Virus record (IMG/VR): IMGVR_UViG_3300022693_000780
Coordinates: 1 to 30,543 of that record
Direction: 5' to 3' (one strand)
DNA length: 30,543 nt
Source of the DNA: a virus
Position numbers and translations under genes: made by a program. Positions within the stretch are counted from its first letter, which is position 1; each line of letters begins with the position of its first letter. Under the pieces are notes generated by a model. The model did not search any database, had not been told where the DNA came from, and was given only the letters and a program-made list of their open reading frames with translations. Shown here piece after piece: positions 1 through 30,496 of this stretch.

Positions 1-174
1 GTTCCATTCAAAACTGCCCCGAGCAACTTTAGAGGGGAACAATTTAATCAGGGTTATACCCGGTCGCGCTATCAAACTTCCTTGACCATTATTAAAGATG
101 TTCTGCACCACCCTTTTAGTTTTAGGAAGGGCATCAACACCTGTTAAGCCTGCAGGAAAGTCCAGTTTTGGCAT
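1..174 (-). CDS. P22 gp10-like tail stabilisation protein, partial
   Basis: This reading frame starts with ATG at 174 and stays open for 58 codons to the left edge, so only the N-terminus is present (MPKLDFPAGLTGVDALPKTK..., with SLIARPGI near residue 35). Its start overlaps the stop of the gp4-like gene by one base (TGATG). In P22 the gene after gp4 encodes gp10, the packaged-DNA stabilisation protein that extends the tail below gp4. The 'S-L-I-A-R-P-G-I' segment resembles the early '...R-x-x-P-G-I' segment of that family. The call rests mostly on gene order and is an inference; the short fragment alone would not identify it. Confidence 0.6.
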   Translation of the reverse strand, partial: MPKLDFPAGLTGVDALPKTKRVVQNIFNNGQGSLIARPGITLIKLFPSKVARGSFEWN

Positions 175-638
175 CAGCTGCTCCCTATCTCACGGTTATC
201 CTCACCACCATCATAGAAAACCTGTGGCTTGAATCCTCTTGTGTTCCCTGCTCCGCGAGGCAATGTGCTGGATACTTTTCGTTTTGGTCTATCAGGATTA
301 CCGATCCCATACTTACCGCGAATAAACTCAAAGTTGCGATTGGCATTAGCCTGTAATTGAGGGGATACGATATTTCCACCATTTGCATAGGGAGGCGCAA
401 GTTCAAGAGCCAGCATTTGCACAATCCCATTCCTTGCGTCTAAGGGTTCGCTGAGTTCATCACCAGCCACATCAATGGGAGTAATCTTCATATCAATGTC
501 CCATGTTTCCCATATAGCCAACATGGAATTAAGTTTACGGAGACCCTTTGCAAGATCAATTGCCTGGGCTTCTGTCTGTTCAGAATCCTGGCCTATTTCA
601 CCCAGAGCATCTTTGATTATCTCTATGCCAGTACTCAT
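174..638 (-). CDS. P22 gp4-like head-to-tail adaptor (tail accessory factor)
   Basis: A 154-aa protein starting MSTGIEIIKDALGEIG, with the alpha-helical pattern of P22 tail accessory factor gp4: an N-terminal helix of the type 'ALxxIG...A..GLRxLNxML..W', then 'ARNGIVQMLALELAPPY' and a C-terminal basic tail. In P22 gp4 docks under the portal ring after packaging, closes the head and receives the rest of the tail machine. The position right after the coat gene cluster and before a gp10-like gene supports this. The start ATG overlaps the stop of the preceding gene (TAATG), indicating coupled translation. The gp4 family also has peptidoglycan hydrolase activity in P22; I cannot judge from sequence whether that applies here. 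Confidence 0.8.
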   Translation of the reverse strand: MSTGIEIIKDALGEIGQDSEQTEAQAIDLAKGLRKLNSMLAIWETWDIDMKITPIDVAGDELSEPLDARNGIVQMLALELAPPYANGGNIVSPQLQANANRNFEFIRGKYGIGNPDRPKRKVSSTLPRGAGNTRGFKPQVFYDGGEDNREIGSS

Positions 639-1538: not shown

Positions 1539-2834
1539 TTAAGTTTGACTACCCAAAATGACACCAGCTTTCTGTGGAATCAGAATGTTTGGAGCCATCC
1601 AGATGGTTAGTCTGTACTTTGTATCCAGGGTAAGAATATCTGAACTCTTTAAGAGAATCACTTCTATACCTGAATCCGTAGTATCACGGAGAACAGCAAG
1701 TCCACTTTCTGCCATATCTATTCCGGACAAGCTACCATGGGTAATTTCCACGGCATCATTAACCCAGAAAATACTAGCCGCTTTCGTGACCGTATTAAGA
1801 AACACGATTGCTTTCCCATCGGCAGCACTGGTTGTGCAGTTGGCATATTCCTTTTCTTCCTGAGTACCACCGTCAAATGCGATAAGAGCCGGTGTGATTT
1901 CCAAAGTAGTAGTTCCAACACCAGCACCAGAAACGATTCTAATAACTCTGAAAGTTTGCAATTTGCCAGTAGATTGCTTGGTTTGCATATTCACACCAAA
2001 CACATCGGCAATCGTAAACGCATCTCCTATTTTAATCGTTCCCGTACCTGTTTCTACTTTAAATTCAAAAGAACGGTTATCAACAGGTTTGGCATTTACA
2101 GTTCCCTTGTCATTACCCAGAGGAATGTGCTTTTGTGCTGTATCAACGACATAAGAAGTACCTGCCGCCGCTACGATGTTCGGCAGGATATTGGTCTTAA
2201 AAGTATCAAAGCCGCCAATCATCGGCAACCTGGACCGTTCCAAAGCCGTTAGAGAAACACCAGTAGGTGGCGCACCTCTTCCCTGCAATTCATTGGCAAT
2301 TGCGTTACTGACAAACGGTTCCAGCATCATTGATCTTGGAGATGCAATGTCAACGCCACGTATCGACATTTCAGCCTCACACTGGTTGAGTTGTGCATAG
2401 CTTGTCAATGCAGCCGATTCCTTAATGAAAATAGCACCTTCATTAGCAATTTTCGTTGTTATCTTCCTGTCAACTTGTGAAGATAGTTCCCGAATAACAC
2501 CATCAAGTTTCCGTTTCCTGGATGAAGGATCATTCAAATCATTAGCATTCAATTTGAACGTGCTATTAATAAAGTCTGAAGGCGAAGCTAGATTTGAATT
2601 CAGAACAGAAGGAACAGAAAGCGCGGTAACATCAGTAAAAGCACTGATAGTCCTACCTTCTGAGGATGCAGAAATATCATCAATAGGTCGCCATACCGCA
2701 TTAGAAGATTGCTCACCTTCCATCTGAGGCATTTTGTACTTACCTACGAGCATTGCCGTCATGTTGTTATTGTTAAAGGTCTTGATCAAATCATTGAAAA
2801 AGACTTTTATACTTTTTGGTAAATTACTAGCCAT
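1539..2834 (-). CDS. P22-type major coat protein
   Basis: 431 aa, the same size as P22 gp5 (430 aa). The N-terminus (MASNLPKSIKVFFNDLIKTF), the 'IDDISASSEGRTISAFTDVT' region near residue 52 and 'DRKITTKIANEGAIFIKE' near residue 122 follow the P22 coat family. The middle (about 230-345) is beta-rich, with SFEFKVETGTGTIKIGDAFT and TTLEITPAL, where P22-type coats carry an insertion domain. It forms the icosahedral shell on the scaffold. It lies directly downstream of the scaffold gene, 16 bp apart, with an 'AAAGGAG' ribosome-binding site. A hairpin terminator follows. Confidence 0.85.
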   Translation of the reverse strand: MASNLPKSIKVFFNDLIKTFNNNNMTAMLVGKYKMPQMEGEQSSNAVWRPIDDISASSEGRTISAFTDVTALSVPSVLNSNLASPSDFINSTFKLNANDLNDPSSRKRKLDGVIRELSSQVDRKITTKIANEGAIFIKESAALTSYAQLNQCEAEMSIRGVDIASPRSMMLEPFVSNAIANELQGRGAPPTGVSLTALERSRLPMIGGFDTFKTNILPNIVAAAGTSYVVDTAQKHIPLGNDKGTVNAKPVDNRSFEFKVETGTGTIKIGDAFTIADVFGVNMQTKQSTGKLQTFRVIRIVSGAGVGTTTLEITPALIAFDGGTQEEKEYANCTTSAADGKAIVFLNTVTKAASIFWVNDAVEITHGSLSGIDMAESGLAVLRDTTDSGIEVILLKSSDILTLDTKYRLTIWMAPNILIPQKAGVILGSQT

Positions 2835-2850: not shown

Positions 2851-3855
2851 TTATTCCCGCTTCAAAACTATTCCCTTCTTGTCGGCTTCTGCCTCAATCT
2901 TCCGGGCTAATGCAAAATCGTCTTTATCATAAGCATTATCCAGTTTTCTTTGTAGAGCAGATGAGCCACCAGTTAATGACGAACCTTCCAGATCATCATC
3001 AATGGCTGCTTTGTTACGGGGCTTATTTTTAATAATCACTGTTTTGTTTAATGCGCCAAGTTCCATCAAGGCAGCATCGGGATCTGTTTTAAACATGGTT
3101 ACAAGATCATGGAGTTCTTCAGGGTTTTTCCCCCATTTCGTAAACAGCAAATGAGCGTTATTACACCGTTTAATGATCTGGTCAGCTACCTTGTCCCCGG
3201 TGATCTGCCGGACAGCGGCTTCTCGATCCTCATAATCCTTGATGCCATATTTATCAACAAACGCATTCACACTTTCATAATGTTCATCTTTACGGGCCGC
3301 GACCTTCCGCATATCAGCGGCTATAGAGTCTGATTCTTTGGTTTGAGTTTGATTTTCAGCGAACCGTTCAGCTATTCGCGCATCAATTCTGGCGTTGTCA
3401 TAATCGAGTAATGCCGTTTTGTATTTATCATCTTCTTCAAAGAGATCAAACTCTTCAGGCTTGGGTCGCACAGGGGTTTTAGTTTCTGTGTTCCCATCCT
3501 GACTGTGTTTATCTGCAAACTCTTTTAATTTTAAAAGCTCTTGAAGTTCAGCCGCTTTTTCTTCAGCAAGATCAGCCCGTTGGGACTCTTCGGCACGTTT
3601 TTTGCCGAGTTCGTTAATTCGTTTGCTGAATGAGTTACGGCCCCTCTTCTTTTGCTTATCATCTTCACCAGCAATGCCTATCTCAATTTCCGCATCTTCA
3701 GGCTTGTCACCTTCAGACTCTTCAGACGAATCTGCGCTAGATTCATCGGTATCGGATTCCTCATCCTGGTCTAAATCTTCAACAACTTCTTCTGTCTCAG
3801 TTGAGGTTTCCTCAGTTTCGATTTCTTCGCTGGTTTCAATGGTTTCTTCGTTCAT
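2851..3855 (-). CDS. Scaffolding protein (P22 gp8-like by position and composition)
   Basis: 334 aa. The first ~65 residues are almost entirely Glu, Asp, Ser and Thr; this is followed by a basic patch (KQKKRGRNSFSKRINELGKKR) and a long helical coiled-coil-like region to the end, finishing with 'KKGIVLKRE'. This low-complexity acidic head and helical body is typical of phage scaffolds, which nucleate procapsid assembly by contacting the coat N-arm and are then released. Size (P22 gp8 is 303 aa) and position immediately before the coat gene agree. There is no protease-like motif, so a re-usable P22-like scaffold is more likely than a self-cleaving one. Confidence 0.8.
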   Translation of the reverse strand: MNEETIETSEEIETEETSTETEEVVEDLDQDEESDTDESSADSSEESEGDKPEDAEIEIGIAGEDDKQKKRGRNSFSKRINELGKKRAEESQRADLAEEKAAELQELLKLKEFADKHSQDGNTETKTPVRPKPEEFDLFEEDDKYKTALLDYDNARIDARIAERFAENQTQTKESDSIAADMRKVAARKDEHYESVNAFVDKYGIKDYEDREAAVRQITGDKVADQIIKRCNNAHLLFTKWGKNPEELHDLVTMFKTDPDAALMELGALNKTVIIKNKPRNKAAIDDDLEGSSLTGGSSALQRKLDNAYDKDDFALARKIEAEADKKGIVLKRE

Positions 3856-3925
3856 TAGTAAATCCTCGTATAAGATTATAGTGTGGCCTTATGGCCCTCC
3901 AGTTTTAAGCACTGGGAAGCTGGTA

Positions 3926-4159
3926 TTACTTATTGATAATTACTTCTTCTTCCACGATCACTTTTTCCTCAACAATAACTTCTGTTGGGATATCGGGTTT
4001 AAGTTCCGTTGTGTGGGCATACATGGTAGCTTTGCCCAATTTAACAGCTTGTGTTGAATAAAATCGAATCTGATCATCATTCCAAGTTCCTGATCCATAC
4101 ATTTTAGATGCTAACAATCCCTCCAAAGCCGATGCAATATATCCTTGTTCTTCCGTCAT
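3926..4159 (-). CDS. Small virion-region hypothetical protein
   Basis: 77 aa. The N-terminal half (MTEEQGYIASALEGLLASKM) looks helical; the C-terminal 20 residues are an alternating Val/Ile/Glu strand rich in repeats (EVIVEEKVIVEEEVIINK). It has an 'AAAGGAATTAATT' ribosome-binding leader and lies between the LamG-repeat gene and the scaffold gene. No family recognised. The position suggests a head accessory or decoration factor. The 70-bp gap downstream holds only weak short inverted repeats. Confidence 0.5.
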   Translation of the reverse strand: MTEEQGYIASALEGLLASKMYGSGTWNDDQIRFYSTQAVKLGKATMYAHTTELKPDIPTEVIVEEKVIVEEEVIINK

Positions 4160-4172
4160 AATTAATTCCTTT

Positions 4173-7100
4173 CTAAGTTATAATTGTCCAAGGTATTCCG
4201 TATCGAGCACCCAGATAAGTCCCTACTTGGTTTCTTTCTTCTGTAGTGAGCAACCGTTTGTAAAGTAAAACTTGTGATATCTTTCCTGAAAAAAAGTTTA
4301 TTCCTGCGCCCGATCCCAAAAAGGCTTGTATTGAACTGGCAAAAATTGAATTGGCAGGACTCGATACAGTTCCCATTGATAAACCGTTTTTAGTGAAATT
4401 CACCTCACTTGCCCCACTCAGCAGATAATGAATCTCAAGAATTACACTTTCAGAAGCTGCGATAGTTGCAGGCCCAATACTGGAAACATCATGGATACCA
4501 GCGGGAGTTCCTGAACTTTGAAACCGTTGTTTCCCGCCTGTATCAACCGACCAAACATAAGAATTAGTTTGGTTTTTGCTGAACATGGTGCGTAAGTCAA
4601 ATAATTCAGGCTGACAAACGATATACATGGTAAAGGAGCTTGAAATATCTAAATCCGCATTATCAGGGATGGTATATTCATCATTCACACCATCAAAATC
4701 CAAGGTGGGATGGCCGTTCAATCCGGTAGCTTCAAAGACTGCCCTGTTAGCGTCTGTTCCTTGGGATGCAACAAGCGGTGTTGAGGTTTGATCTGTCCAT
4801 GTAGACACCTTGTTCCCAACCAGAACAATTCCTACCGCAGCATCCAACCAGAAAGTTAAATCATTAATATCATCAGGTTTAAATAAAATCCCCGCCCACG
4901 GTATTGCATATCTCGTAGAAAGATAAGTGCCTACCTGGTTTCTTTCTTCTGTGGTTAATAATCTGTTGTAGATAATAAACTGGGATATCTCTCCGTGCCA
5001 AGGATTAATGCCCGGACCCCGCGCACCAATAAACAAATTCGCCGCATTGGAAAAAATACCGCCTAAAGTATTGACTTGGGCTGCTCCCAAAGCCACTCCA
5101 TTAGCTGTAAAATTAATAGTTCCTCCAACCTGATAATGGATTTCTAAAATTTGAAAGCCACCTATAGCATTGGGACTTGTATCCGTTTCTGCTCCTCCAC
5201 CATCATTAACAACCGTTTCCAGTCTGCTTAAAGTGCTAGCCCGGAATTCATAGCCATTTGTAATATTTCGAGAAAGCAATGTGAAGTTGTTCGCTCCACC
5301 TTGAAGCCTCGCAACCGTATAAAATGTAAAGTCAGTAGTTAAATCTAAAATGGAGCTTTGTGCTACTGGCATTTCCAAGAACTGAAACTGCATAGGTTGC
5401 CATACAAGTGCGCCTTGAGCCCCTAACGCATTCGGGTCAAATCCTATTGTTTTTGCGGGATCGTTTTGAACCGCTACAAAACCATTTCCACTTTGATCTT
5501 CCCACCTGCCAATGGGACCACCAAACGGGGTTGCACCAACACTAGCATCCAGCCAAAGAGCAAGACCCGTTAGATCAGTAGGCACGAATTCATTAGTTAT
5601 ATCTTGCCACTGCTGCCCATATCTATCTGCAAGATAATTGCCGATAACATTTCTTTCGGGGATCGACAATAAATTATCGTATAAGAGGATTTGGCTTATC
5701 TTTCCTTCCAGAAATACCGAATTAGTTAAGCCCCCTAGAATTAAATCAGCCGATGTGCTGTTTATATCTGCAAGAGTATTTAAAAAATTACCCAAAGATG
5801 CGCCTTTATTGGAGAATCTAACCCGGTTAGCTCCTCCTACCTCATAATTCACATCTAAAATTAAAGGGGTTGCTGCTGGAAGCCGACCGCCTGTGAAAGT
5901 TATCGGTCCCTCGCTATTTGAACTTGTAATTGTTTCTAAATTATTCTTATTCCCAATCAATACCCTGTAACCCGAGTCACCATTTTTGCTAAGAATAGTT
6001 GAATCAGGGAGTAAAAAATCCATTACTGCAAAAAAACTAAATGAACCTGTGAAATTAAGAGAACTGTCAGCAGGAGCAACAAGAGTCCTCCCCTGAATCA
6101 CCCTCGTGAATGCAGCGGCATCTTTACCTGCCAACCCCTGTCGCGTAAAAAAAGGTTGTTTAAAGCTATCATCCTGCGCTACATCATTACTTTGTGGCCC
6201 TTGATCGGCCCAAGCGGTTACTGTCAATCCTGGATGGGTAATTTCTTCATCAGCATCCAACCAAAGAACCAATCCGTCAAAATCAGTTGGGGCAAACGGT
6301 TTAATATCCGTCCAGGTAAAGCCATACCGACCAGCTAAATAGTTGCCTACAAAGTTTCTTTCATTAAGATTAAGAAGCCTTCTGTACAATAGAACCTGGG
6401 ATATCTCTCCTTCAAATGGAGAAGCGGTTCCATCCTTTGAACTGATAAATAATTTACTTGCATTTTGATTTACTGAAGTTCTGTTATTGCTTTTCAATTC
6501 TCCAAGAGGAACGCCGTTCTGAGTAAAACTAACGAGCCCATTTACCTGATAATGAACTTCAAGAATAATATCAGTGGAATCAGTGGGAGCCGTATCAGCA
6601 GTGGTAAGTTCCAGACTTATATTATCTTTAACCCCTACTACAATCCTTTCCCCATTGGAATCATCAAAGAAAATCTCATATCCATCATCACCACCCTTAG
6701 AGAATATGTACCGATCCGATGTTAAGGCAACACTCTTAAGTGCCATATAAAATGTGAAGTCACTCCCTAAATCAATAGAGGCAGCATCATCAATCTCCAT
6801 GTTTTCATCAGTTGCACTACTAAATTCAAGTGTAGGAAATCCATTGAAAGCCGTAGCCTTAAAAGCAGGTCGTTTACCAGCCGTTGGTTGGGCCGCATCG
6901 TTGCCATTACCACTCTGATCTACCCAAGCTGATACAGGGTCATCCTCATTATTTGGGCTTACTCCTCTCGCAGCATCTAACCATAGAACAAGATTCGGCA
7001 CATCAAGTGGAGTGTGTGTTATATCTGTCCAGGGAATGTTGTATCTGTTCCCCAGAAAAGCCCCGACCCGGTTTCTTTCCGTTTGGGTCAAGAGCCTGTC

Positions 7101-7832
7101 ATATATTAATACTTGGCCTATTTCTCCTGTGAAAAACTGAATATCACCACCACCCTGCCCAACAAAAAACGGATCTGCACCCCTTGTAATTGCAGCAACC
7201 GTACTGAATTGTGAAGCTCCAAGTTCAACACCGTTCAAGCTAAATGTGACAACTCCCCCAACCTTAATCTCCCATTGCAATTCCATAATGCTAGGCTGAT
7301 TTACGGTGGTAGTGGTGATGCTTGTTATATCTTTGCCAGCACCTACGCCTAGAATTGCCCTTCCTGCTCCATTGGAACTATATAAAAATCTGAAATCATT
7401 CGCACTCTTGCCGAACATGGTGGGGAAACCAGCAAAGCTTGTGCATTGGTTAACCACATAAGCCGTAAACGATCCGGTAAAATTTAGACCCGTTTGAGCC
7501 GCATCTGTGATTGACATATCATGTGCTAGAAGTGGATTTGCATTTGGAACAAAAGTTAAAGATGGATGACCATTAATCCCTGTTGGATTTAAAGCAGGCC
7601 GCTTGATTGTAGATCCTTGGACCACATCATTACCTTCTTTGCTACGATCAGCCCAGGTTGTAATGTCCCCACTGGAAGGAGTTAAACCAAATGAGGCATC
7701 CAACCATAAAACAAGATTATCTATATCGCTCGGCTGAAAATCTTCCTCTCCACCTACACCCTTTCCAAAGGCTTTACCAAAAGGCTTGCCGAAAGCAGGT
7801 TTATTAAATGGGATTAAGGCTGTTTTAACCAT
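4173..7832 (-). CDS. Giant virion protein with five tandem LamG-like domains
   Basis: 1219 aa, built from a short basic/Gly N-terminus (MVKTALIPFNKPAFGKPFGK) and five repeats of about 235 aa starting near residues 37, 277, 515, 750 and 985. Each repeat begins with a 'LVLWLDA' motif, then 'W.DQSGNGNDA.Q', 'FNGxPTLEF', a 'DFTFYM'-type strand, 'ILEIHYQVGG..FTxNGV.LG', and ends with 'GEISQVLLYxRLLTxxERNxVGxYLxxRYGIPW'. This is the concanavalin-A/LamG jelly-roll pattern, which commonly binds glycans. The repeats are clearly homologous but diverged. It overlaps the preceding stop (TAATG) and sits between portal and scaffold, where P22 has nothing. A head-fibre or surface-decoration role that helps the virion adhere to glycan is an inference; a tail adhesin is the alternative. 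Confidence 0.8.
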   Translation of the reverse strand: MVKTALIPFNKPAFGKPFGKAFGKGVGGEEDFQPSDIDNLVLWLDASFGLTPSSGDITTWADRSKEGNDVVQGSTIKRPALNPTGINGHPSLTFVPNANPLLAHDMSITDAAQTGLNFTGSFTAYVVNQCTSFAGFPTMFGKSANDFRFLYSSNGAGRAILGVGAGKDITSITTTTVNQPSIMELQWEIKVGGVVTFSLNGVELGASQFSTVAAITRGADPFFVGQGGGDIQFFTGEIGQVLIYDRLLTQTERNRVGAFLGNRYNIPWTDITHTPLDVPNLVLWLDAARGVSPNNEDDPVSAWVDQSGNGNDAAQPTAGKRPAFKATAFNGFPTLEFSSATDENMEIDDAASIDLGSDFTFYMALKSVALTSDRYIFSKGGDDGYEIFFDDSNGERIVVGVKDNISLELTTADTAPTDSTDIILEVHYQVNGLVSFTQNGVPLGELKSNNRTSVNQNASKLFISSKDGTASPFEGEISQVLLYRRLLNLNERNFVGNYLAGRYGFTWTDIKPFAPTDFDGLVLWLDADEEITHPGLTVTAWADQGPQSNDVAQDDSFKQPFFTRQGLAGKDAAAFTRVIQGRTLVAPADSSLNFTGSFSFFAVMDFLLPDSTILSKNGDSGYRVLIGNKNNLETITSSNSEGPITFTGGRLPAATPLILDVNYEVGGANRVRFSNKGASLGNFLNTLADINSTSADLILGGLTNSVFLEGKISQILLYDNLLSIPERNVIGNYLADRYGQQWQDITNEFVPTDLTGLALWLDASVGATPFGGPIGRWEDQSGNGFVAVQNDPAKTIGFDPNALGAQGALVWQPMQFQFLEMPVAQSSILDLTTDFTFYTVARLQGGANNFTLLSRNITNGYEFRASTLSRLETVVNDGGGAETDTSPNAIGGFQILEIHYQVGGTINFTANGVALGAAQVNTLGGIFSNAANLFIGARGPGINPWHGEISQFIIYNRLLTTEERNQVGTYLSTRYAIPWAGILFKPDDINDLTFWLDAAVGIVLVGNKVSTWTDQTSTPLVASQGTDANRAVFEATGLNGHPTLDFDGVNDEYTIPDNADLDISSSFTMYIVCQPELFDLRTMFSKNQTNSYVWSVDTGGKQRFQSSGTPAGIHDVSSIGPATIAASESVILEIHYLLSGASEVNFTKNGLSMGTVSSPANSIFASSIQAFLGSGAGINFFSGKISQVLLYKRLLTTEERNQVGTYLGARYGIPWTIIT

Positions 7833-8163: not shown

Positions 8164-10263
8164 CTAATTAAGTGGTAATCCTTCCACGTTCTGAAAGGTT
8201 TGCTCATTAATATCTGATTCGATCTTCCTTATTTCTGTTAGGGTCTTGGCGGTACCGAGTGGCAACTCCCTGAGAATCTTCTGCGTTTCTGCACCCTTCT
8301 TCTGTGCCGATGCCAGGTTGTCAGCCACCTTGGAAGTACGTTCTTCCGCTTCTGACTCAGCTTGTTTACCCATTGATTCCATAAGTTTCTGTTCTTCGCT
8401 TTGCTGGTTCTGTTGGGCTTGCAATACTTGTTGTTCTTCTTCAGGTGTTTCAGGTTTGATCATCCCCAGTGTGAGCATTCTGTCTCGGTTAAATTTCTTA
8501 ACTCCTTTACCAATGGCAGGCAATTTACTAAACAATTCAGCCACCAGATGAGGCAGGTAAGGTTGGAGCGCCTGGTTATCTTTGGAAATCTCAATCAAAT
8601 CCTTCAGCGTTTCAACATCGGCTTCCCGTTGCGTTTCAAACTGTGGCCCAACATCAGCATAGGCTCTGAACTTCTTATTCCTTAACGAACTGACTTCTGC
8701 AAGCTGGCCCAAGTCCTCATCAAACTTAGTTTCCACAAGTTTCTGCATGGACTCGGTACCATCCTCTTTAAGAAGCACCATTTCCTTGCGGTCGGCATAA
8801 ACATCAGTAGCAATGGACTGGTAAATCTCACCCAAATGCTCGATGCCATCAAAGATGTTCTCCATGATTGGCCTGGTCTTAATATTCTTGAGCTTCCTTT
8901 CCATCAGCTTGGCTTTGCCTGATTCCAGCTTATTCCTGCCCTCTACCGGCTCCTGTCCTGTCTTGTCGTGCATGAAAGCAGGAACAACTTGGAGTAGGGC
9001 TTGCATAGATGGTGACACGTTAGGAGCCTTTAGGAAACCCAGTGGCCCCTGGTGAACAATATTGCCATCCTTATCCCTCAATGCTTCCATTCGCACATAA
9101 GGGGCATTCGGTAAGTCCTCCCAATCGCTCTGGTATTCCGGCGTGATTTGTTTTGGGTCAACTATTGGGATATCGGTGGATTGCATAGCCGCATTCTCAG
9201 CCAGTTGAGATATCTGCATATTGAATAACCGTTGTGGGTCAATTAAATCCTGAACCAGACCGGACCACCACTCAACACCGTCTGTATATCCCCGGAAAGC
9301 ATAGAAAGGACAAATAGGTATCCACTTGCCGGCTATTGTTTTGGGTGCCTCAAGGAATTCCGCGCCACTGAACACAGCCTTCTTGATAATTCTGGGCCTC
9401 ATAATCCGTTCTTCAGAGAATCTAAGATTAGGATCATTCTTAATAGCTGACTTCTCTTCTTCATGCTCTTTCTCGGTGAACACTTCCTTCTTATTCGTTA
9501 CCGTATTGTCATAGATAAAGACTTTTTCGCGCCCTCTTAGCACTCCATACCGGGTGGCGATATAAACATTATTGGGGTTGGAAGTATCAAAGTTGAACTC
9601 TTTCCTATCCTGTGGACTAAATACCGAAACAGGATCACGACCAGGCCATCTACGCCTGAACTCATCCTCATTCAATTCAGTCAAGACGGTACAATGAATG
9701 GCATCCTTCTTATCTTTACGTTGCGCACCTTTATTGAAGAAGACAGAATTAAACCCATTGTAAATAGGGGAAAAGGTTATCCTTCTATTCTCATTCTGAT
9801 CATCTTCCTCATCTTCATGCTTGGTGCCAACCTTGATATAGGCCGGCCCAGAGATAGTCATTTCCTGTACTGCATTGTCCAGGGCTTCTTTACCTGAGAA
9901 CTGCCTGAAGTCTGTACGAAACAGGTTATTCAGCACCATAGAATCAGATTCAGTTGCGGCATCATCCGTAGGACGGTAATCAACGGCCACCCTGTTCTCC
10001 GACCATTCCCCAAGGAAGTCCCTAATTGCATCACTGACAAGGTTAAACTCCATTCTGACGCGGCCATCAAACTGATCTTCAAGAAAGTCTTCCCATTGCC
10101 CCCCTCGTACCAATACAAACCGCATGGCTACATTGGCCTGATCGCGCTGTTCTCCATTAATCGCGGCATCCTGCTGAAGATCAGTAATAAACTGGGAGTG
10201 CAACAGTCCCTCTTCAGGTGTCATTTTGGAACCATCTATCTTCTTGTCATCGTCTAGTGGCAT
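8164..10263 (-). CDS. P22-type portal protein
   Basis: 699 aa, close to P22 gp1 (725 aa). Recognisable family features are the N-terminal 'GQWEDFLEDQFDGRVRMEFN' block (residues about 55-75), 'VSDAIRDFLGEWSENRVAVDYRP', and the clip/stem region 'ICPFYAFRGYTDGVEWWSGLVQDLIDPQRLFN' around residue 325-355. The C-terminal 120 residues are Gln/Glu-rich and helical (LQAQQNQQSEEQKLMESMGK), matching the long barrel helix of P22 portals. Twelve copies form the DNA entry channel at one vertex, bind terminase during packaging and the gp4 ring afterwards. It lies directly after terL. Confidence 0.88.
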   Translation of the reverse strand: MPLDDDKKIDGSKMTPEEGLLHSQFITDLQQDAAINGEQRDQANVAMRFVLVRGGQWEDFLEDQFDGRVRMEFNLVSDAIRDFLGEWSENRVAVDYRPTDDAATESDSMVLNNLFRTDFRQFSGKEALDNAVQEMTISGPAYIKVGTKHEDEEDDQNENRRITFSPIYNGFNSVFFNKGAQRKDKKDAIHCTVLTELNEDEFRRRWPGRDPVSVFSPQDRKEFNFDTSNPNNVYIATRYGVLRGREKVFIYDNTVTNKKEVFTEKEHEEEKSAIKNDPNLRFSEERIMRPRIIKKAVFSGAEFLEAPKTIAGKWIPICPFYAFRGYTDGVEWWSGLVQDLIDPQRLFNMQISQLAENAAMQSTDIPIVDPKQITPEYQSDWEDLPNAPYVRMEALRDKDGNIVHQGPLGFLKAPNVSPSMQALLQVVPAFMHDKTGQEPVEGRNKLESGKAKLMERKLKNIKTRPIMENIFDGIEHLGEIYQSIATDVYADRKEMVLLKEDGTESMQKLVETKFDEDLGQLAEVSSLRNKKFRAYADVGPQFETQREADVETLKDLIEISKDNQALQPYLPHLVAELFSKLPAIGKGVKKFNRDRMLTLGMIKPETPEEEQQVLQAQQNQQSEEQKLMESMGKQAESEAEERTSKVADNLASAQKKGAETQKILRELPLGTAKTLTEIRKIESDINEQTFQNVEGLPLN

Positions 10264-10265
10264 AT

Positions 10266-11522
10266 TTAATAACCTTGAAAGCTATTTCTTTTTGGTCGGT
10301 GGACATAAACAGGAGGTTCTTCCTTCTTTTTCGTTAAAGAGGGAAACAGTTCAGTAAAGGCCCAGACCAACGCATCACAACTATCTGGTGAACCTTCACC
10401 CTCATACCCTGCGGCAGTCATTTTGCACATCTGGTCCTCTAATTCGTTAAACGTGCCAACATGGGAAACACGCCCGGTCTTATACAATGCGCTGATTGGC
10501 TCGGCTCGAACGTGCTTCCCTTTGGTGGCTCTTACTTCCCTGATTGGCAGACCAGGACGAATTGAATCGAGGGTATGCTTAACCATATCCCCGCCTTGGT
10601 TAATCTCAATCACGATACAGTCAGCGTCATACTCATCATAAGCGGCGATAACGCGAGTGGCCCACCGGTCCGGGGAACCTTTTAAAGACCAATCAGCCAG
10701 AACATAGCCACGCTGATCTGCACCAACACCAGCAATGATAATTCCATGCTTATCGCTAAACTCTTCATTGGATATAGCAGGGTCAACAGCCACCACAATC
10801 CTGCCCATTTCAGGGACTTCATGTCTTCTATGTTCATGGAGGGTCTGCCGATCCCAGATAGCACCAATAGCCATTGGCTCATAATCCCCTAGCCAGATAT
10901 GAGCGTATCTACCCGGATTATTCTTTAAATCAAAGAGTCGTTCTTCTTCCAATACGGCGGGGAACCAAGGATTATCTTCATAAGTGGTCTTGATAACTAT
11001 TGCATTCTTGGGTACTTCCAAGCCTCTAAATAGAGAATCAATCGGGTCGCTTGGGTTCCTGGGATTCCAACCAGCCCATATTTCTGAGTTTTCTTTTCTG
11101 ATTGTGGGGCGAAGGTATTCCAGTGAACGCCTGGAGGAAGTCTGCGCCTCCTCAATCCAAGCCACATCATTTCCTTCATGGCTTTTTATAGATTCTGCAG
11201 TATGGTCCTGCAAGCCTTGGAAAGTAATAACGCCACCGCCTGGTGTTTCAATGCTATCGTTCAGAACTCTGAATTCACTCATCAAACCAAACCGTTCAAT
11301 CTTGTCCTCAATCAAGCGTTTAGCTGATTCTTTCAGGGATTTCTGCACCTCCCGAACACAGACCATCCTGAAACCCGGTTGCATCAAGGCTCTTTCAATT
11401 CCCAGTTCACTAAAGAAGTGGGACTTCAAAGCACCTCGACCACCATAAATAGCCTTGTATCGGCTTGGTTCCAGCATGGGGCGTAAGACTTTAGCTGTCT
11501 GTATTTCGAGTGTTGTTGTCAT
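10266..11522 (-). CDS. terL: Terminase large subunit
   Basis: 418 aa from ATG 11522. The ATPase domain shows Walker A GGRGALKS (residues 27-34) and Walker B VAWIEEA (about 120-126) with the catalytic Glu; the motor coupling segment 'EIWAGWNPRNPSDPID' follows. The nuclease domain has the acidic triad pattern: VAVDPA (Asp 247), IVIEINQ (Glu 306) and SPDSCDAL (Asp 380/383). It pumps DNA into the prohead through the portal and cuts it. An upstream in-frame TTG at 11534 is possible, but ATG 11522 is preferred; neither has a strong ribosome-binding site and both lie inside the end of terS, so translation is probably coupled. Confidence 0.92.
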   Translation of the reverse strand: MTTTLEIQTAKVLRPMLEPSRYKAIYGGRGALKSHFFSELGIERALMQPGFRMVCVREVQKSLKESAKRLIEDKIERFGLMSEFRVLNDSIETPGGGVITFQGLQDHTAESIKSHEGNDVAWIEEAQTSSRRSLEYLRPTIRKENSEIWAGWNPRNPSDPIDSLFRGLEVPKNAIVIKTTYEDNPWFPAVLEEERLFDLKNNPGRYAHIWLGDYEPMAIGAIWDRQTLHEHRRHEVPEMGRIVVAVDPAISNEEFSDKHGIIIAGVGADQRGYVLADWSLKGSPDRWATRVIAAYDEYDADCIVIEINQGGDMVKHTLDSIRPGLPIREVRATKGKHVRAEPISALYKTGRVSHVGTFNELEDQMCKMTAAGYEGEGSPDSCDALVWAFTELFPSLTKKKEEPPVYVHRPKRNSFQGY

Positions 11523-11988
11523 TTGGTTCAACAATAGTCCGTTTAATTTCAGTTATCTTTAATTCGCCTGTATGTTCGTGTCGTTCCTTAAACATTCCCA
11601 AATTCTTTCCTGCTAGTTCAATTCCTTTAAACATTGGGCTGGCTTGAAAAGTATATTCTCCTATCTCCTTTCCTTCCTTATCCATCACTGGAGTGTGTTG
11701 CATGCAACGCTCGATACCTTCTTTCAAATTGGTTAAAACCCAGTCTTGGTCGATGTGACACCGTTTTGAGGATGCTTCCATTGCTTCCAAGATTGCCGCC
11801 GCCACTCCCGGCTTTTTCTTTAATACTGAACCCCTGTTATTTGCTACCTCATACGAACAGTCATAGACTTTCTGGTAGGCTTCGGTCGCATTTCGGCTGA
11901 TGGTGTATTCATCAACAAATGCTTGATGCCGGTCGGATAATTCTAAATAGGTTTCTGTATATTCTTCTTCTGTGGGTTCTTCTTCCAT
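11491..11988 (-). CDS. terS: Terminase small subunit
   Basis: 165 aa. An N-terminal helix-turn-helix region, 'LSDRHQAFVDEYTISRNATEAYQKVYD' (about 16-43), followed by 'ANNRGSVLKKKPGVAAAI', is typical of phage terminase small subunits that recognise the packaging site and stimulate TerL. The C-terminus is a helix plus a polar tail (EPNDNNTRNTDS). The gene overlaps terL by about 30 bp and its ATG overlaps the stop of the small basic gene upstream (TAATG). A packaging (pac) site often lies within or near this gene; I saw no diagnostic repeat. Confidence 0.85.
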   Translation of the reverse strand: MEEEPTEEEYTETYLELSDRHQAFVDEYTISRNATEAYQKVYDCSYEVANNRGSVLKKKPGVAAAILEAMEASSKRCHIDQDWVLTNLKEGIERCMQHTPVMDKEGKEIGEYTFQASPMFKGIELAGKNLGMFKERHEHTGELKITEIKRTIVEPNDNNTRNTDS

Positions 11989-27730: not shown

Positions 27731-27777
27731 GCGAATTCAGCTTTTTAATTGAAAATAACTCATGGAGGATGAAAATA

Positions 27778-28230
27778 GTGGTTACTGGAGGCAGTATATC
27801 TAACAGAATCAAAGATTTGAGGGAAGAAATAGGGATGAATCAGAAGGAATTTGCAGAGATTTTAGGACATTTCAGCCCAGATCACCTAGCAAAGATGGAG
27901 CGCGGGGATATAAAGGAGCCTAAATATTCCCATTTAATAGCCATAGGCAAATATTGTGGCGTTTCGACCGATTACCTGCTCACAGGCAAGGAATTCCAGC
28001 ATTCTGGGACTGCTACCCATCAGAATACAAATATGCAAACCGTAGCCGCTAAGGAGGCCATAAACCACCTCAATAATTGTGCCAAATCAATCAAGAAACT
28101 GGATTCTACAGTCGTTCTCGGTATTCAGTATTTCGAGAATCAAATTAAGAAACTTGACCGCGATCCTGAGATTGAAAATGCACTCGGAATGGTAAGCACC
28201 CAATTGACGGAAAGGTTGGTGCATAATTGA
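27778..28230 (+). CDS. cI-like XRE-family repressor
   Basis: 150 aa from GTG 27778, which leaves 9 nt after 'GGAGG' (27764-27768); ATG 27769 abuts that site and is less likely, though it is the conventional choice. The HTH (about residues 8-65) is of XRE type: 'RIKDLREEIGMNQKEFAEIL', 'HLAKMERGDIKEPKYSHLIA', 'YCGVSTDYLLTG'. The C-terminal half is helical without a LexA-type protease, so it is probably not RecA-cleavable. It faces the leftward early promoter and likely keeps it off in lysogens. Confidence 0.75.
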   Translation: MVTGGSISNRIKDLREEIGMNQKEFAEILGHFSPDHLAKMERGDIKEPKYSHLIAIGKYCGVSTDYLLTGKEFQHSGTATHQNTNMQTVAAKEAINHLNNCAKSIKKLDSTVVLGIQYFENQIKKLDRDPEIENALGMVSTQLTERLVHN

Positions 28231-28730: not shown

Positions 28731-28865
28731 ATGAACCCCGAAGATTTTTATAATGCTAAACGCAAATCCCTGTTCTGGGTAGATATGATTTTCTATCTGA
28801 TCCTGTGTTTTTTTCTAGCATTAGGCGTGACTATTGTTTATTGGATTCTTAAATTGGCGAATTAA
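28731..28865 (+). CDS. 44-aa single-helix membrane peptide
   Basis: MNPEDFYNAKRKSLFWVDMI followed by a hydrophobic stretch (FYLILCFFLALGVTIVYWIL) and a short end. The N-terminus is short and polar. It lies between the coiled-coil gene and the LuxR-type gene and its stop overlaps the latter's ATG (TAATG). Possibly a membrane anchor or immunity peptide; unproven. Confidence 0.6.
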   Translation: MNPEDFYNAKRKSLFWVDMIFYLILCFFLALGVTIVYWILKLAN

Positions 28866-29089
28866 TGGCACCTCCTATACAGTTGCTTACTTCAGCGGAA
28901 GTGATTTTAACGGAACGCGAATTAGAGATTTATATTGGTTTAGGGGAAGGGAAAAGCCCCAAGGAGCTTGGCGCGGAATTGTTTATAAGTCCTAAAACTA
29001 TATCATCTCATAGATGTAATATTATGGAAAAGATGGGATTTAAAAATATTTACCAATTAATGCATCACGCAATAAAATCTAAGGAGTAA
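28865..29089 (+). CDS. Orphan LuxR-type HTH protein
   Basis: 74 aa that is little more than a GerE/LuxR DNA-binding domain: 'LTERELEIYIGLGEGKSPKE', 'LGAELFISPKTISSHRCNIM', 'EKMGFKNIYQLMHHAI'. There is no receiver or autoinducer domain. Stand-alone domains of this type can activate transcription. It precedes the peptide and collagen-like genes in the same direction, so they may be its targets. The target site is not known. Confidence 0.8.
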   Translation: MAPPIQLLTSAEVILTERELEIYIGLGEGKSPKELGAELFISPKTISSHRCNIMEKMGFKNIYQLMHHAIKSKE

Positions 29090-29278: not shown

Positions 29279-29548
29279 ATGAAAAAATTAATTATTTTAA
29301 TAATTTCGTTGACTTTAGCTTTTGCCACTGTTGGTTGCCAAGGTGACGATGGAGAACCGGGTAAAAGTGGAATTGATGGCATTGTTGGTCCTAGTGGTCC
29401 CACTGGCAGTGATGGGTCACCTGGCAGTGATGGGTCACCTGGAAACACTGGCGGAATTGGGCCTCGTGGACACCAAGGGGAAACTGGAGAACTAGAAGCT
29501 TGTGGTGCTGATGAACATAGAGTAGCCGGAACTTGTGTACCTGTTTAA
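29279..29548 (+). CDS. Collagen-like lipoprotein
   Basis: 89 aa. Signal peptide II (MKKLIILIISLTLAFATVGC) with the lipidated Cys at 20. Seventeen G-x-y triplets follow (residues 22-72: GDDGEPGKSGIDGIVGPSGP...), then 'CGADEHRVAGTCVPV' with two further Cys that may bond. A membrane-anchored short collagen-like spacer exposed at the cell surface or in the periplasm. 'GAGGAG' precedes the ATG. Paired with the secreted collagen-like protein downstream, it may be its partner; this is inference. Confidence 0.75.
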   Translation: MKKLIILIISLTLAFATVGCQGDDGEPGKSGIDGIVGPSGPTGSDGSPGSDGSPGNTGGIGPRGHQGETGELEACGADEHRVAGTCVPV

Positions 29549-29569
29549 CTAACCAAGGAGATTTAAGAA

Positions 29570-30496
29570 ATGAAAAGAACTATATTAATTTATTCTTTGT
29601 TTATATTGTCATTTTTGGTCGTTGTACCACAAGCATTTGCTGCTCATTACCCTGCCATTAATTTTGCGAGCCAAGTGTCTTACAAAACCTCAGCTGAAGG
29701 AGAACCCCCTACATTTGTGGATGCTTTCGATATTAATGGGAGGTATCTCTTTTTAATTAAAAACAGTCAAAAGGTTATTCCAATAGTTAAACTTGGTGAG
29801 ACAGTTCTAACCATTCTTTATTCAGGGATGATAGCTGATTCCACCACTGATCAACAACAAGTCATTGTGCAGATGCCATCTCCGATTATCAGTGGAAGTT
29901 ATAATATTGAGGTAAACAATGGAGATCGCCTCGGAGGTTTTATTATCACACTAGGGATGGTTGGCCCGACAGGACCAATAGGACCATCAGGAGGAGAGAC
30001 AGGACCAACAGGAGAGACAGGAGCAGCAGGAGAGACAGGAGCAGCAGGAGAGACAGGAGCAGCAGGAACCAATGGCACAAATGGCACAAATGGAACTAAT
30101 GGAACTAATGGAAGTGATGGAAGTGATGGTGCTACTGGTGCCAATGGCACAAATGGAACTAATGGTGCTGACGGGTCAGACGGTGCTATCGGAGCAACAG
30201 GGCCAGCAGGCAATACAACCACAAAAGCCTTTGTAAACTTTAATGGCGCAGACACACCTGTCATAAGAGCGCAATCTGGTATTTCCACTATTACACGAGT
30301 GTCTGCAGGTGAATACACGATTACCTTTGCCAACTCGTTTGCTAATATTAACTATGTGATGACAGGGAATGCCAGTAATGGGATTGTGTTTATTAGAACA
30401 GTTAGAAGAGATAGTATTACTATTTACATTTTAGACACAGAAGGGCGATATGTTAACCCAATGCGGGTTATGCTGCAATTTATCAGCAATAATTAA
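29570..30496 (+). CDS. Secreted IPT-like/collagen/phage-fibre-domain protein
   Basis: 308 aa. Type I signal peptide (MKRTILIYSLFILSFLVVVP; cleavage likely after AFA, residue 24). Residues about 27-128 look like an IPT/TIG-type beta-sandwich (AFDINGRYLFLI, PIVKLGETVLTILYSG, GSYNIEVNNG). Residues 132-215 are collagen triplets (three, an interruption GGET, then 23, mainly GTN, GET, GAA, GSD). The C-terminal ~90 residues (KAFVNFNGADTPVIRAQSGI ... ISTITRVSAGEYTITFA) are the domain that ends many phage tail fibres. It is probably exported in the lysogen, unlike a tail fibre. Confidence 0.75.
   Translation: MKRTILIYSLFILSFLVVVPQAFAAHYPAINFASQVSYKTSAEGEPPTFVDAFDINGRYLFLIKNSQKVIPIVKLGETVLTILYSGMIADSTTDQQQVIVQMPSPIISGSYNIEVNNGDRLGGFIITLGMVGPTGPIGPSGGETGPTGETGAAGETGAAGETGAAGTNGTNGTNGTNGTNGSDGSDGATGANGTNGTNGADGSDGAIGATGPAGNTTTKAFVNFNGADTPVIRAQSGISTITRVSAGEYTITFANSFANINYVMTGNASNGIVFIRTVRRDSITIYILDTEGRYVNPMRVMLQFISNN
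29993..30190 (+). repeat. In-frame collagen tandem repeats
   Basis: Three copies of an 18-bp unit (GGAGAGACAGGAGCAGCA, about 30011-30064) and a run of 9-bp AATGGCACA/AATGGAACT-type units (about 30070-30115). All keep the reading frame, so length changes by slippage would vary collagen length without breaking the gene. Confidence 0.7.

Follow-up and report, generated by a model that had tools for sequence, protein, structure and literature searches.

Lcl of Legionella is a collagen-like surface adhesin with a C-terminal binding domain. Among phage-encoded collagen-like proteins, EPclA-D are tail fibres of E. coli O157 prophages, and EPclA forms trimers (PMC3368898). Tail-type proteins may also act as surface adhesins, as do PblA and PblB of Streptococcus mitis phage SM1 (PMC7600539), and prophages contribute envelope proteins to their hosts such as lambda lom, which leads to adhesion, lambda bor, which leads to serum resistance (PMC5247750), and Ltp, a lipoprotein of a lysogeny module (PMC3952083). 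Both prophage-encoded envelope proteins and tail proteins that lysis releases to act at the cell surface are established. Here we add a conserved orthologue of a predicted exported protein (B) ending in a phage fibre-type tip, the cassette of exported proteins in which it lies, and the scarcity of signal peptides in the family of its tip. We put at about 55% the probability that B is a lysogenic-conversion (moron) protein, that is, an exported trimeric knob fibre altering the adhesion of the lysogen or the adsorption of phages.

The window, meaning the whole stretch of DNA analysed, is a linear virus record of 30,543 bases. Its minus strand encodes coat (PF11651, 1.7e-59), scaffold, portal, terminase, tail chaperone, replication protein, integrase and Erf, and on this gene complement it is a P22-like temperate phage. 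No tRNA genes were found in the window, and a scan of genomes with the portal returned no match. The plus strand carries a repressor-type gene followed by tightly packed small genes, and the row is closed by gene A and then gene B, oriented opposite to the structural genes (Table 1). The first-pass annotation had described A and B as adjacent repressor-side genes for a collagen-like lipoprotein and a secreted collagen protein; the reading frames, strand and coordinates are correct, and the lipobox of A, the signal peptide of B and the Pfam Collagen matches of both bear out the description.

Table 1. Features of the repressor-side gene row, in window coordinates
Feature	Position	Strand	Evidence
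Repressor-type HTH protein, first in the plus-strand row	27769..28230	+	PHROG transcriptional repressor/regulator families, best 8.1e-16; Pfam HTH_3 1.2e-11
Small LuxR-type (GerE) HTH protein, same row	28865..29089	+	Pfam GerE 4.2e-16
A: collagen-like lipoprotein, 89 aa	29279..29548	+	Sequence; Pfam Collagen; rule-based export signal
A: lipoprotein signal, ending at lipobox Cys20 (Gln at +2)	29279..29338	+	Direct sequence reading; rule-based call
A: about 17 Gly-X-Y triplets	29342..29494	+	Sequence; Pfam Collagen 4e-9
B: exported IPT-collagen-tip protein, 308 aa	29570..30496	+	Sequence; PHROG; Pfam; orthologue L241:2883-3755
B: type I signal peptide, predicted cleavage AFA↓AH	29570..29641	+	Sequence; rule-based call; 72% identical in L241
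B: IPT/TIG-like N-terminal domain	29642..29953	+	Pfam TIG 0.06; hhalign 1.8e-6 to exported bacterial IPT domains
B: Gly-X-Y collagen region, interrupted near its start	29954..30220	+	Pfam Collagen 1.1e-12
B: phage tail-fibre/tailspike type C-terminal tip	30221..30493	+	PHROG 11355 3.7e-8; own profiles; AF2 pLDDT 95.7; Pam1 Z 8.7

Gene A has a good Shine-Dalgarno sequence (AAGAGGAG), a lipobox reading ATVG↓C that predicts lipidation, a Pfam Collagen score of 36.5 bits (cut-off 27.2) and a short C-terminal tail with two Cys, and its product is probably sorted to the outer membrane. Collagen lipoproteins resembling A occur at seven loci in bacterial genomes. Gene B likewise has a good Shine-Dalgarno sequence (AAGGAG) and encodes, behind a signal peptide ending in VVPQAFA↓AH, a domain of about 100 residues (approximately 26-128), a Gly-X-Y stretch (approximately 129-217; Pfam Collagen 47.9 bits, cut-off 27.2) and a C-terminal domain of 91 residues (218-308).

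The tip is the best defined part of B. Profiles started from the B C-terminus gathered 155 ORFs in 91 loci sharing the core KAWVNFNGTGT.AIRAS.NVSSITDNGTGDYTVNFT, and the match nearly always ends approximately 45-60 residues before the C-terminus of the protein. In B, as in nearly all of the 155 ORFs, the domain stands at the C-terminus. B itself matches its own profile with E of about 1e-17 to 1e-20, and PHROG 11355, a tail-fibre family, covers residues 217-270. These matches place the tip firmly in a very common family of phage tail-fibre and tailspike tips, in agreement with the first-pass reading of the C-terminus as a phage-fibre domain. Annotated carriers include HMO-2011, where the tip lies in tail-fibre-type genes, and a Vibrio phage and the P22-like phage MW202867, where the genes are unnamed; matches in bacterial genomes (L174-L180) are tail-fibre-like genes without a signal peptide. 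As a single query the tip found no match in IMG/VR, and a sequence search of solved structures found no homologue.

An AlphaFold2 model of the tip from 49 sequences reached high confidence (Table 1) and superimposes with TM of approximately 0.9 on predicted phage proteins, several of them named tail fibre. Among solved structures the best matches are C-terminal parts of tailspikes, including that of PhiAB6 (Z 7.7) next to Pam1; the PhiAB6 spike is trimeric and its C-terminal domain is an independent beta-sandwich (PMC5314372). H-type lectins (Z of about 5-6; Helix agglutinins approximately 5.5) and R-pyocin fibres (Z of about 5) follow; the similarity to lectins is weak and, as one of fold, shows no function. 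Virus coats, lufaxin and BclA appeared among lower PDB fold matches and were set aside as common beta-sandwich arrangements.

The N-terminal domain required more context. The first-pass annotation had called it IPT-like, a call that is weak when B is taken alone, with 13.8 bits against the Pfam TIG gathering score of 20.9 (E = 0.06), and convincing once the orthologue and bacterial relatives are considered. Exported IPT-collagen proteins, in which a signal peptide and an IPT/TIG-like domain run straight into Gly-X-Y repeats, are encoded on bacterial contigs (L218, L234, L235 and L221), and Pfam TIG scores with several of their N-domains. The family of the B N-domain aligns with these N-domains by hhalign (Table 1), and the orthologue scores 23.9 bits and window B 13.5 bits, compared with 11.7 bits for the best of 2000 shuffles. 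The IPT profile was built from six checked sequences. Single-sequence searches were less informative: the N-domain as a query had no match in IMG/VR, phages or plasmids, the N-terminal part of B had none in approximately 700 bacterial genomes at E 0.001, and a query with whole B was unusable because unrelated collagen flooded the results. An AlphaFold2 model of the N-domain made without an alignment (pLDDT 40.6) was set aside. All exported bacterial IPT-collagen proteins found lack the phage tip. Given that bacterial genomes encode such proteins as well as collagen lipoproteins, the best reading of B is an exported IPT-collagen chassis of bacterial type that appears to have been fused to a phage tip. 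The two IPT-collagen genes of L218 (167-2061) are neighbours, paralleling other tandem exported collagen genes.

Export signals were called by reading the sequences and with a simple rule, rather than a trained predictor, that looks for a charged start, a hydrophobic core and a cleavage motif. By this rule only A and B carry a signal among the 44 ORFs of the window. Applied loosely to the 155 tip ORFs, a set that excludes the orthologue found later, the rule flags two, window B and an unconvincing case (L167), leaving B as the single convincing signal peptide; the first-pass remark that a fibre domain on an exported protein is unusual is borne out. Apart from B, six tip ORFs contain a collagen stretch, all without a signal peptide, and convincing signal peptides are present in 2 of 113 collagen ORFs of phage loci (L060 and L070), to which L090 adds two. 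The criterion for entering this sample was resemblance to B or to its tip and not possession of a signal peptide, but the sample is non-random. The L070 case (5977-6453) is a short collagen-like protein amid small non-structural phage genes. The L090 pair (5662-6735 and 8915-10075) are similar exported collagen-like proteins on a phage contig from the genome of an isolate, and each gene is preceded by one for a 242-residue exported-looking protein.

These observations bear on an alternative, that B is a virion tail fibre whose hydrophobic N-terminus only resembles a signal peptide, or which is exported and joins the particle once the cell has lysed. Where collagen and tip are fused but a signal peptide is lacking (at four loci: L003, L136, L140 and L163), the proteins are ordinary phage fibres, and elsewhere the tip is always seen as a virion domain. 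B differs from such fibres in its signal peptide, in an IPT-like N-domain resembling exported bacterial proteins, and in its location apart from the structural genes, on the plus strand at the repressor side, away from both the late genes and the fibre genes (13.5-19 kb). Its signal peptide is moreover classical and kept in the orthologue, whose neighbours are exported too. We regard a virion role as quite improbable.

The orthologue lies on a 14.7 kb contig (L241, from IMGVR_UViG_3300023223_001018) that starts inside a repressor 81% identical to that of the window. It has 290 residues, is 56% identical to B and retains the signal peptide, IPT domain, collagen region and tip, with identities of 64% in the tip, 72% in the signal peptide and 48% in the IPT domain. 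With dN of 0.35 and dS of 1.3, dN/dS is approximately 0.26, a value that is approximate because dS is high, and this ratio indicates that B is under purifying selection. B is thus found in two phages, both of them fragments, with the gene order from the repressor to B partly kept. The stand-alone LuxR-type (GerE) gene of the window has a homologue at the same place in L241.

Gene A is not present at the L241 locus, and the collagen pair of the first-pass annotation is not conserved. Directly before B, L241 instead carries a gene (1799-2662, plus strand) for a protein with a signal peptide that matches outer-membrane beta-barrel families (Surface_Ag_2 4.6e-13; OMP_b-brl 2.7e-10), so that A appears to be a replaceable neighbour of B. 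Directly after B is a gene (3825-4391, plus strand) for an exported protein of 188 residues without a family; the window ends before the corresponding position. A terminator-like site of 16 pairs stands immediately behind B. Beyond the cassette the genes are convergent on the minus strand, the first probably a fibre or spike, by position alone and without a family match, and they include a P22 gp7-like ejection protein. Two of these late genes match the left end of the window, at 76% (window 174-638) and, for the coat C-terminus, 78%. The cassette is thus bounded by the last genes of the repressor row and, from the opposite direction, by the end of the late operon.

The loci L083 and L085, from the same metagenome as L241, have a portal 69% identical and stop shortly ahead of the repressor, so they may represent a further part of the L241 phage. 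In the early region of this relative, L085:3160-3522 (minus strand) encodes an exported-looking protein of 120 residues.

The synteny of L241 largely refutes the notion that A and B belong to a host in which a prophage has integrated next to them, or are an assembly chimera or non-functional frames. The record is fragmentary and both genes do stand at its extreme end, but in L241 B has phage genes on both sides (repressor row and late genes) and its dN/dS argues against a decaying frame, making this reading hardly credible. It is improbable, too, that B is exported yet remains periplasmic, or serves lytic growth only, for example in lysis or envelope stress. Surface display of B would need a further route beyond Sec, of which none was identified, and the L241 cassette adjoins the end of the late operon. 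B is nevertheless oriented with the repressor and not with the late genes, a terminator follows it in L241, and an outward-binding tip would have no evident periplasmic use.

The preferred reading of B as a lysogenic-conversion protein draws on its location, since A and B in the window and B in L241 lie outside the structural modules and with repressor-side genes, as morons do. The L241 cassette, combining an exported fibre-type tip with an outer-membrane beta-barrel protein, has the pattern expected of lysogenic conversion. In the mechanism that we envisage, the prophage would express B from its repressor side, and the Sec signal peptide would direct export. Three chains would then join into a short fibre, held together by the knob at the C-terminus and by a triple helix of the Gly-X-Y repeats. 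The IPT domain would form the end that faces the cell or binds a partner. The knob, tailspike-type with H-type lectins as the nearest non-phage folds, would face outwards and bind glycan. The lysogen would thereby be altered in adhesion or in the adsorption of other phages. A, as the collagen lipoprotein of the same cassette, may help to display B or may act alone. We hold at slightly less than even odds the fuller proposal that a virion-type receptor-binding tip was fused to a bacterial IPT-collagen chassis, turned in this way into a dedicated Sec-exported host-surface lectin, and placed in a lysogeny cassette, through which the prophage controls adhesion or adsorbing phages.

Strict superinfection exclusion, in which A and/or B in the envelope stop related phages from adsorbing or their DNA from entering and have no role in adhesion, is an unlikely alternative. 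Ltp (PMC3952083) is a parallel for a phage-encoded lipoprotein located beside the repressor. In lysogens of P22 several exclusion functions are active, among them the change made to O-antigen by GtrABC (PMC10883804), and a tip of receptor-binding type could mask a glycan used by phages. Nothing specific to exclusion was found, however, and A is not conserved. Among the Pfam, PHROG and NCBIfam matches of A and B there is no described exclusion family (Ltp, SieA and others). Furthermore, the tip of B is unrelated to the fibre of this phage at 15217-17505, with which the first-pass annotation had suggested comparing it, and it does not recur in any other ORF of the window; a shared receptor is not indicated because the two differ. 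The lysogenic conversion originally suggested is supported in its export signals, the repressor-side row, the fibre-type tip and now a second phage; a fixed pair and an origin of the tip in the phage's own fibre are not supported.

Set against the described systems, B combines features otherwise found apart. Like B, EPclA-D are prophage-encoded with a collagen stalk and a C-terminal phage-fibre domain, but by their description they have PfN N-domains and are side-tail-fibre components, whereas B has a signal peptide, an IPT-like domain and a repressor-side cassette. The bacterial IPT-collagen proteins share the signal peptide, IPT/TIG-like domain and Gly-X-Y repeats of B and differ in lacking the phage tip and lying on bacterial contigs. 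Lcl is likewise collagen-like with a C-terminal binding domain, and is surface-exposed and used as a surface marker (PMC12239567), although the match of B to it is confined to the collagen stretch, at 45.7 bits compared with an NCBIfam cut-off of 500; the SclB score of B, 50.4 bits, similarly falls short of its cut-off of 325. PblA and PblB, compared by description, reach the surface by holin/lysin release and are also virion proteins, whereas B has a signal peptide of its own. The products of lom, bor, gtrABC/sieA and Ltp are prophage-expressed envelope proteins or surface changes leading to adhesion, serum resistance or exclusion; neither A nor B was seen to match any of their families, and the L241 neighbour of B resembles Lom solely as an outer-membrane beta-barrel. 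The C-terminal domains of the Pam1, PhiAB6 and LKA1 tailspikes and the H-type lectins share the fold of the B tip at 13-17% identity; the former sit on a virion spike and the latter on a free lectin, whereas the tip of B is on a predicted exported protein.

If correct, an exported surface protein with a virion fibre tip would directly connect the evolution of phage receptor-binding proteins with that of bacterial adhesins, and the surface of a lysogen may bear a fibre of viral style. B is small, making the specificity of the tip, adhesion of the lysogen and phage exclusion approachable on one protein in laboratory strains.

Two further features of the window concern its structural region. Between the portal-side and scaffold genes, a minus-strand gene (4173-7832) encodes a protein of 1219 residues with several tandem LamG/concanavalin-like repeats, perhaps a capsid decoration. 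At 10266-11988 (minus strand) the terminase small subunit is 85% identical to that of L083 and the large subunit only 29%, a contrast in identity that marks a mosaic breakpoint.
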